NCBI GenBank assembly: GCA_003166475.1
Contig: PMVV01000400.1
Location: 2,370 to 51,498 of the forward strand
DNA: 49,129 nt
Source of the DNA: Bryobacterales bacterium
GTDB lineage: Bacteria; Acidobacteriota; Terriglobia; Bryobacterales; Bryobacteraceae
Reading direction: 5' to 3'
Shown here: piece by piece, positions 20,201 through 48,620 of the stretch
Layout of the letters: each line of letters opens with the position of its first letter
Position numbering within the stretch: position 1 is the first letter of the stretch
The notes under the pieces: generated by a model
Databases searched by the model: none
What the model was told of the DNA's origin: nothing
Seen by the model: the letters and a program-made list of their open reading frames with translations, nothing else
Program-made: the position numbers and the translations under genes

Positions 20201-20290
20201 GTGGGGCGGACCTCCAGGTCTGCGCGGGTCCTCCAGGACCCGCTCCAGGCCGACGTGGACGTCGGCCGCAGGGCTGGAGTCCTGCCCTAC
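20201..20290. repeat. Modular hairpin repeat element, copy 1
   Basis: GTGGGGC head; GCGGACCT-cc-AGGTCTGC, GCGGGTCCT-cc-AGGACCCGC, GGCCGACGT-gg-ACGTCGGCC; tail CTGCCCTAC. Confidence 0.85.
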
Positions 20291-24374: not shown

Positions 24375-24445
24375 GTGGGGCAGGCCATCGTTTTTCGTGG
24401 CCTGGCGAGTTCGAGCGCGGTGCGCAGACGACAAACAACGATCGA
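24375..24445. repeat. Dispersed hairpin repeat, TCG-loop subclass, copy B1
   Basis: GTGGGGCAGGCCA-tcgtttttcg-TGGCCTGgC followed by CGCAGACGACaaacaacGATCG. Confidence 0.75.
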
Positions 24446-27017: not shown

Positions 27018-27146
27018 GTGGGGCGGGCAATCCTGGCAGGCAATCCTGCCCGCAGCCGGATTTCAGGCGGGCCTCCGCGACCGTGACGAGGCGCCGTGAA
27101 AGCAGGCGCCGCCTGAGCGGCTGCGGCCATGATTGGCCGCCTCACC
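27018..27146. repeat. Modular hairpin repeat element, copy 2
   Basis: GTGGGGC head; GCGGGCA...TGCCCGC; GGCGCC-gtgaaagca-GGCGCC; GCGGCC-atgatt-GGCCGC; CCTCACC tail. Confidence 0.75.
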
Positions 27147-27243: not shown

Positions 27244-27262
27244 GGCGGCCTCCCAGGCCGCC
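27244..27262. repeat. Perfect hairpin module GGCGGCCT-ccc-AGGCCGCC
   Basis: 8-bp perfect stem with 3-nt loop; same module at the left window edge and at 48555-48573 (loop ctc). Confidence 0.85.
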
Positions 27263-45510: not shown

Positions 45511-46302
45511 ATGGCGGAGTGTGCCGTCAGGATCACCGTACTTGGCTCCGGCACCAGCACCGGTGTGCCGACCATCGGCTGCCATTGCGACGTATGCACT
45601 TCCGCCGATCCGCGGGACAAGCGCCTGCGCCCGTCCATCCTGGTGAGTTACGGCGGCCACCATGTGCTGATCGACGCCACGCCGGATTTTCGCGCGCAGG
45701 CCCTTCGCACGGGTTTCGAACGCTTGGACGCCATCCTGTTCACCCACGAGCATGCCGACCATATCATGGGCCTGGACGATGTGCGGCCCTTCAATTTTCA
45801 TCAGCGGGCCCGCATTCCTATCTACGCCTCGGAACGCACCATGGCCGCCATCCACGCCGCGTTCCGCTACGTCTTCGACGGCGACGAAAAGGGCACAGCC
45901 ATTCCGCAACTGGACTCCCACACGCTGAACGGGGCCTCGTTCGACCTGTTCGGCCTGGAATTCACGCCCATCCCGCTACTGCACGGTAAGGCCGCGATCT
46001 ACGGCTTCCGCTTCGGCAATGCCGCTTATCTCACCGACCACAGCGAGATTCCCGAGGACTCTCTCGACCGGTTGCGCGGCCTGGATGTGCTCTTCCTCGA
46101 CGCGCTGCGTTACAAGCCGCATCCCACGCATTCCACCGTGGACCGTTCCATCGCGACGGCCGGCCGTCTCGCGGCCAGGCGCGTCTTCTTCACCCACATC
46201 TGCCACGACCTGGCGCACGCGCGCACCGAGGCGCGCCTGCCACCGCACATCCGCCTGGCCTATGACGGGCTCGAAATCGAAGTGGAGGGCGCGCGTGCCT
46301 AG
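45511..46302 (+). CDS. MBL-fold metallo-hydrolase (PhnP-like)
   Basis: LGSGTSTGVPTIGCHCDVCTS; FTHEHADHIMGLDDVRPF; FLDALRYKPHPTHSTVD. Confidence 0.92.
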   Translation: MAECAVRITVLGSGTSTGVPTIGCHCDVCTSADPRDKRLRPSILVSYGGHHVLIDATPDFRAQALRTGFERLDAILFTHEHADHIMGLDDVRPFNFHQRARIPIYASERTMAAIHAAFRYVFDGDEKGTAIPQLDSHTLNGASFDLFGLEFTPIPLLHGKAAIYGFRFGNAAYLTDHSEIPEDSLDRLRGLDVLFLDALRYKPHPTHSTVDRSIATAGRLAARRVFFTHICHDLAHARTEARLPPHIRLAYDGLEIEVEGARA

Positions 46303-46311
46303 CCGGCTGTT

Positions 46312-46352
46312 GTGGGGCAGGCTCCCAGCCTGCGCGGGTCCCCCGGACCCGC
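46312..46352. repeat. Modular hairpin repeat element, copy 3
   Basis: GTGGGGCAGGCT-ccc-AGCCTGC then GCGGGTCC-ccc-GGACCCGC. Confidence 0.85.
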
Positions 46353-47490: not shown

Positions 47491-48501
47491 ATGAAAATGT
47501 CCGAGGGTAAGTTAAAACACCTGAAGGCGCTCTCAAACCACGCCGGCGTCATCGCCGCGGCGGCCATGGATCAGCGCGGAAGCTTGCAGAAGTCCCTGGC
47601 ATCGGCGCGCGGCGTGGATAAGAAAGAGATCACCCACGAAATGATGAGCGAGTTCAAGACTGCCGTCACCAAGGTGCTGACACCGCATGCCAGCGCTATC
47701 CTGCTCGACCCCGAATTCGGCCTGGAAGCGCGCCTCGCGCGCAGCAAGAACGCCGGCCTGCTGCTGGCCTATGAGTTGAGCGGATACGACAACACCCAGC
47801 CCGGCCGCCTGCCCGACCTGCTGCCCCACGTTTCAGTGAAGCGCATCGTGGATTGGGGCGCGGATGCCGTCAAGATCCTGATCTACTACACGCCCTTCGA
47901 GGACGCCAAGATCAACGACATCAAGCACGCCTTCATCGAGCGCATCGGCGCGGAGTGCCAGACTTACGATATCCCGTTCTTCCTGGAGTTTGTGGGCTAC
48001 GATCCCAAGGGCGGCGACGAGAAGGGCTTCGAGTACGCCAAGGCCAAACCCGAGATCGTCAAGAAGAGCATGGAGGAGTTCTCCAAGCCGCAGTATTTCG
48101 TGGATGTGCTGAAGGTGGAAGTGCCCATCAACGCCGAGTTCGTTGAAGGCAGCGCAGTATATAAAGGACAAACCGCCTATACCCAGGCGGAAGCCAAGGC
48201 GCATTTCCGGACGGCCGCTGAGATCGCCAAGAAGCCCTTCATCTATTTAAGCGCGGGCGTCAGCAACGCCCAGTTCGTGGAATCGCTGCGCATGGCCACC
48301 GAAGCCGGCACGGATTTCTCCGGCGTACTCTGCGGCCGCGCCACCTGGAAAGAAGGCATCCCGGTGTACGCCAAGAGCGGCGTCAAAGCGCTGGAAGATT
48401 GGCTGTCTAAGGAAGGCGTGAAGAACATCAACGCCGTGAACGACGCCATCAAGTCGGCCACGCCGTGGTACGCCAAGCTGGGCGCGCCGGTTCCGGCATA
48501 G
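47491..48501 (+). CDS. lacD: Tagatose-1,6-bisphosphate aldolase (LacD family)
   Basis: AMDQRGSLQKSLASARG; ILLDPEFGLEARLARSKNAGLLLAYELSGYD; GADAVKILIYYTPFED; AAGGAGAT upstream. Confidence 0.9.
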   Translation: MKMSEGKLKHLKALSNHAGVIAAAAMDQRGSLQKSLASARGVDKKEITHEMMSEFKTAVTKVLTPHASAILLDPEFGLEARLARSKNAGLLLAYELSGYDNTQPGRLPDLLPHVSVKRIVDWGADAVKILIYYTPFEDAKINDIKHAFIERIGAECQTYDIPFFLEFVGYDPKGGDEKGFEYAKAKPEIVKKSMEEFSKPQYFVDVLKVEVPINAEFVEGSAVYKGQTAYTQAEAKAHFRTAAEIAKKPFIYLSAGVSNAQFVESLRMATEAGTDFSGVLCGRATWKEGIPVYAKSGVKALEDWLSKEGVKNINAVNDAIKSATPWYAKLGAPVPA

Positions 48502-48511
48502 TTCCTGTTCT

Positions 48512-48620
48512 TGTGGGGTAGCCTGCCGCCCTGTGGGGCAGGCCCTCGGCCTGCGGCGGCCTCTCAGGCCGCCCGCACGCGTTTCGTGCAAGTTCTCCAG
48601 GACCCGCTTCGCGCCCCACC
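48512..48620. repeat. Modular hairpin repeat element, copy 4 (composite)
   Basis: Two GTGGGG heads; GCAGGCC-ctc-GGCCTGC; GGCGGCCT-ctc-AGGCCGCC; GCACG-cgttt-CGTGC; CTCCAGGACCCGC; GCGCCCCACC tail. Confidence 0.85.

Follow-up and report, generated by a model that had tools for sequence, protein, structure and literature searches.

GTGG-footed tandem double hairpins as probable REP-type repeats of RAYT systems in a Bryobacteraceae genome

The closest described relatives of the repeats reported here are the REP sequences that accompany RAYT genes (REPtrons), among them the REP-BIME of E. coli with TnpAREP and the REPs of Pseudomonas and Stenotrophomonas. They are high-copy and intergenic, the RAYT gene lies between inverted copies, and the arms are RAYT-specific (PMC3733652, PMC8266576). 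The biochemistry of TnpAREP, which concerns single-hairpin GTAG REPs, has established that the foot tetranucleotide is used, in group 3 together with loop bases and stem integrity, and that cleavage occurs near the REP at CT or CA (PMC8266576). For the inverted REP doublets known as REPINs, the proposed model takes singlets as dead remnants (PMC3116915). From Acidobacteria, Di Nocera (2013; PMC3733652) describes TIRYTs (TIRtrons), in which Y1 transposase genes lie between terminal inverted repeats (TIRs), some 'double palindromic'. Some of these TIRs have GGGGWSAS in common, and the TIR of K. versatilis ORF1552 forms a dispersed family. A later classification assigned most TIRYTs to subclass 2.1, which has a C-terminal HTH (PMC6006769), and Solibacter usitatus carries about 600 copies of class 3 Y1 repeats (PMC6006769).

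The repeats in the window

The window, i.e. the whole stretch of 49,129 nucleotides that was analysed, is part of one contig (C207) of a draft genome of 7.56 Mb in 497 contigs. Four hairpins at 20201-20290 make up two double-hairpin units in heads-out orientation, GTGGG-hairpin-hairpin facing CTAC:

20201-20243, + strand: unit 1, subfamily B1; GTGGG foot, hairpin 1 at 20206-20223, hairpin 2 at 20224-20243
20248-20290, - strand: unit 2, subfamily B2, inverted; GTAGG foot at 20286-20290, hairpins GCAGGACTCCAGCCCTGC at 20268-20285 and GGCCGACGTCCACGTCGGCC at 20248-20267

In unit 1 the foot is followed by GCGGACCT-CC-AGGTCTGC (8 bp, including one G-T pair) and GCGGGTCCT-CC-AGGACCCGC (9 bp), after which TCCA separates the two units. 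The third hairpin, GGCCGACGT-GG-ACGTCGGCC, again has 9 bp. The stretch 20268-20290 reads GCAGGGCTGGAGTCCTGC-CCTAC, which is a GTAGG-headed unit in reverse complement, and thus holds both the inverted head and a fourth hairpin. A preliminary description of this DNA had listed at least three consecutive hairpins after GTGGGGC; these are real (9, 9 and 8 bp, the last with the G-T pair), but they number four, and the inverted head had been overlooked. The two units are a REPIN/BIME-like heads-out pair of about 90 bp. The folding energy of the 90 nt as single-stranded DNA is -37.1 kcal/mol, whereas shuffled sequences give -20.7 +- 2.5 (z = -6.5), and the folding allows one long hairpin with inner arms. 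The first 43-45 nt of unit 1 recur in many places of the same genome at 91-100% identity. Several own-genome matches to 20201-20290 cover both halves and many more cover one half only; inverted pairing does occur in subfamily B.

The other units in the window include members of a different kind, which we call family A:

46312-46352, + strand: family A unit, GTGGG + GCAGGCT-CCC-AGCCTGC + GCGGGTCC-CCC-GGACCCGC; just 3' of the gene at 45511-46302; 63.1 bits, fold z -3.8
48533-48573, + strand: family A unit, GTGGG + GCAGGCC-CTC-GGCCTGC + GGCGGCCT-CTC-AGGCCGCC; 3' of the gene at 47491-48501; 69.5 bits, fold z -5.1
48586-48619, - strand: inverted partner in a decayed state; its GTGGGGC head is at 48619-48613
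27018-27070, + strand: decayed member of subfamily C (GCGGGCA/GCCGGCT) with an internal GGCAATCCT duplication; fold z -0.03, not significant
27244-27262, + strand: solitary hairpin-2 module, GGCGGCCT-CCC-AGGCCGCC; the preceding sequence resembles a disrupted hairpin 1
1-17, + strand: 3' portion of a complete family A unit; its head falls beyond the window, at about C207:2348

The loci named in the preliminary description fared differently. The related locus at 46312 was confirmed. The related locus at 48512 exists, but its head sits at 48533, 48512 being only a GTGGGGTAGCC half-head; the one at 27018 has decayed, belongs to another subfamily and folds no better than its shuffles. At 1-17 the edge of the window only gives the impression of a single module; the contig continues leftward with GTGGGGCAGGCCCTCGGCCTNN, and the module belongs to a full unit with an assembly scar. 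Such NN scars and contig ends lie inside these hairpins at L302:169-170 (C207:2368-2369) and in L052 and L104; because the assembly breaks within the hairpins, the copy counts given below are lower bounds.

A second dispersed GTGGGGC-headed element, GTGGGGCAGGCCATCGTTTTTCGTGGCCTGCCGAGTTCGAG..GCGCAGACGACAA, is found at 24375 (+) and 31183 (-) and consists of one longer hairpin with a conserved tail. A random genome sample contained 14 of these, 13 of them intergenic.

Abundance, pairing and subfamilies

The genome was sampled in 73 regions (0.84 Mb) which, with the window, come to about 0.889 Mb at approximately 62% GC. Each repeated unit has a GTGG foot, sometimes GTAG, behind which two perfect hairpins abut in tandem. 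GTGGGGC with two abutting hairpins occurred 47 times in 0.89 Mb and not once in three third-order Markov shuffles; the word GTGGGGC by itself shows no enrichment in the window (17 occurrences, 13.1 expected). The commonest kind of these hairpin repeats is family A (GCAGGCY + GGCGGCCT type), for which a covariance model detected at least 150 copies genome-wide with E-values down to 1e-14. Above 50 bits, 36 units were present in the 0.889-Mb sample, which extrapolates to about 306 per genome. No match at gathering score to an Rfam family was obtained in the window.

Pairing is maintained in both hairpins. Among sequences picked by their first 11 bases only, hairpin 2 keeps at least 7 of its 8 pairs in 49 of the 51 with an intact hairpin 1. 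In the stems of family A two-sided changes were counted in 46 cells. Shuffles, which do not keep relatedness, gave 16.2 +- 3.6, and slid controls, which do, at most 10; compensatory changes affect six of the eight pairs of hairpin 2.

The preliminary description had seen in these repeats a mix-and-match array of modules. Within family A the variants of hairpin 1 and hairpin 2 are indeed freely combined (Fisher p = 1.0), and a few units join modules from different families (e.g. that at 46312 and L043:1658). Most hairpin pairs, however, fall in subfamilies with matched loops (CTC/CTC, CC/CC, CCCT/CCCT), and the hairpins therefore do not form a free array.

Most family A units stand alone. Only 4 of 35 have a heads-out partner no more than 400 bp away, about the background level, and the units are nevertheless alike (mean identity 0.87). 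Identical 41-mers made up 71 of 109 units, a figure inflated by the choice of 60 loci for their top scores; the unselected figure is 9/35.

RAYT genes and their flanking hairpins

Four Y1_Tnp (Y1/HUH) genes were identified in the genome. The RAYT gene on contig C398 (protein P0001) has inverted family A units on either side, at 1402 (+) and 2052 (-) of locus L031, with the feet outside and a total of about 650 bp. Next to a second RAYT gene (C408) lie a family A unit (2033-) and, on the opposite side, a broken head; a third Y1_Tnp gene (C27) is accompanied on one side by a unit from a different subfamily. A RAYT with arms of subfamily B, the repeat type of 20201, was not found in this draft genome. 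The frame of the C398 gene (L031:1399-1974) runs into its own flanking repeat (GRPERPPQAESLPH), so that the tail of the protein is repeat-encoded.

P0001 has 188 amino acids and ends about 15 residues past the core, in a disordered tail; a C-terminal HTH beyond the core was not seen. It scores 76.9 bits against the NCBIfam REP_Tyr_transpos equivalog, just below the cut-off of 80, and the same model matches all 24 of 24 RAYT relatives. The HUH and Tyr motifs are conserved, the latter as YIExNP. The best PDB match, both by sequence and by fold (AlphaFold model, pLDDT 82), is 4er8, E. coli TnpAREP with REP hairpin DNA, and the RAYT is thus predicted to have a TnpAREP-like HUH fold.

Relatives of this RAYT were scanned by protein at 78 loci, almost all from Bryobacteraceae/Bryobacterales MAGs, with the flanks unselected, although some query proteins had first been noticed together with their flanks. 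By this kinship the host, too, is taken to be an Acidobacteriota of that group. A GTGG-tagged double hairpin stands at the expected end in 48 of the 78 loci and at both ends in 21, at a near-constant distance; close to the gene its density is 0.82/kb, falling to 0.05/kb at greater distance (p 6e-35). The arms vary between RAYTs and follow RAYT similarity, but those at either end of a given RAYT are mostly alike. For 15 of 18 RAYTs the first arms are the same at both ends, where shuffling gives 2.0. RAYT and repeat distances are correlated (Mantel r = 0.40, with 0 of 2000 permutations as high), a signal that may reflect shared descent of the hosts as well as coevolution; one of the 46 input rows (L173), left in, came from a wrong position and would if anything weaken the result.

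In the flanks of more distant RAYTs of the set (L207, L208, L212-L214, L226) the GTGGGGC-headed hairpin is single, which suggests that the double hairpin may have arisen from a single one. Another repeat, ACCGAGCCGCGACCG, occurs in L034, L155, L156 and 14 other loci, in three loci close to Y1_Tnp genes, and is possibly of the class 3 (CnGA foot) type of S. usitatus (PMC6006769).

Proposed working and comparison with known systems

We conclude, with a probability of roughly 0.87, that the repeats are of REP type, i.e. non-autonomous dispersed ends of RAYT (TnpAREP-like, Y1/HUH) systems in this Bryobacteraceae genome. This reading is based on the repeats, their structure, copy number and location, the RAYT flanking, the cognate arms and the predicted HUH fold; from these we infer that the RAYT would cleave, transfer and mobilise them. 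The preliminary description had drawn the analogy to REP/BIME elements with a maintained foldback structure, and had named genome-wide copies, intergenic bias, covariation above shuffles and a RAYT/TnpA-REP transposase as its checks; all four agree with it.

When the strand is single-stranded, for instance as lagging-strand template, the cognate RAYT would recognise the folded stem together with the bases of the loop and the GTGG foot, its catalytic tyrosine would cut beside the foot, and the unit would be moved or copied into other single-stranded, mostly intergenic sites. The stems could then drift via compensatory changes, each RAYT lineage ending with its own arms, because in this proposal pairing and loop count more than the letters of the stem. 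The conserved foot and loops and the drifting stems agree with the TnpAREP biochemistry (PMC8266576).

The placement of family A, called with a simple home-made gene finder, is strongly biased: 28 of 35 units are intergenic (21% expected for random places, p 1e-13) and one lies within a gene body (68% expected, p 3e-16). Since many units in tandem gaps lie less than 40 bp from the end of the upstream gene, and pyrimidine-rich bases, the only conserved feature found downstream of family A, directly follow hairpin 2 (TCTTT in 14/109), the tandem hairpins might act in RNA, as intrinsic terminators or stabilisers of mRNA 3' ends that are spread or kept by transcript selection; clustered hairpins have been proposed as terminators (PMC8355165). 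We consider this improbable as the main explanation, because orientation has no clear bias (18 same-strand and 12 opposite in tandem gaps, 8 units in divergent gaps), near-identical 41-mers in unrelated flanks point to dispersal, and RAYT flanking with cognate arms would be left unexplained. An RNA-level role could be a secondary use.

Still less probable is that the subfamilies spread because existing hairpins recombined or underwent gene conversion with one another, with no transposase involved. The free combination of hairpins in family A would fit it, as stems may be rewritten as modules. However, the unit bounds are sharp at 41 bp (identity of the flanks 26-27% pairwise), T is favoured at -2 (62/109, p 9e-18) and G is avoided at -1, which suggests site-specific joining, and the repeat co-occurs with RAYT, Y1_Tnp being present in 15 of 16 genomes with the repeat and in 9 of 24 without it (p 7e-4). 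Chance inverted repeats, conceivable at this GC content and with the GTGGGGC word unenriched, are excluded by the double-hairpin counts in shuffles, the covariation and the covariance-model copies with their E-values.

Within the REP reading, it is a tentative and rather unlikely idea that the mobile unit of family A is the single-footed 41-nt tandem double hairpin, spreading alone with no inverted partner. If so, the unit would in effect hold both hairpins of an IS200/IS605-like reaction behind one foot, and its spread would be at odds with the view that replication is confined to inverted REP doublets. The solitary yet conserved units offer a direct test of whether spread needs inverted doublets, and the many RAYT lineages with their own arms make the match of RAYT and hairpin readable by comparison. 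REP/RAYT systems, mainly studied in Proteobacteria, are hereby extended to a large clade of soil Acidobacteriota, most of them uncultured.

Compared with REP/RAYT systems, the repeats share the GTAG/GTGG foot directly 5' of a short-loop, GC-rich stem, the high copy number and the extragenic site, as well as the RAYT gene between inverted copies (for family A, in its own genome) and the RAYT-specific arms (PMC3733652, PMC8266576); they differ in that the foot is mainly GTGG and each unit has two tandem hairpins. The pair at 20201-20290 resembles a REPIN in being heads-out, whereas family A consists mainly of singlets (4/35 paired) and not mostly of inverted pairs (PMC3116915). The likeness to TIRYTs (PMC3733652) lies in Y1 genes of Acidobacteria with flanking repeats, some double palindromic; unlike subclass 2.1, P0001 has no room for a C-terminal HTH. 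The class 3 repeats of S. usitatus come from a related host group and are likewise dispersed hairpins beside Y1 genes, but have a CnGA foot and the Tyr motif Y----Q (PMC6006769), in contrast to GTGG and YIExNP here. As 'double palindromic TIRs' near such genes had already appeared in the 2013 paper (PMC3733652), the double-hairpin architecture was not wholly unforeseen. New are the GTGG-footed tandem double hairpin as the repeated unit, the mostly solitary occurrence of family A and, in one order, the many RAYT lineages with arms of their own.
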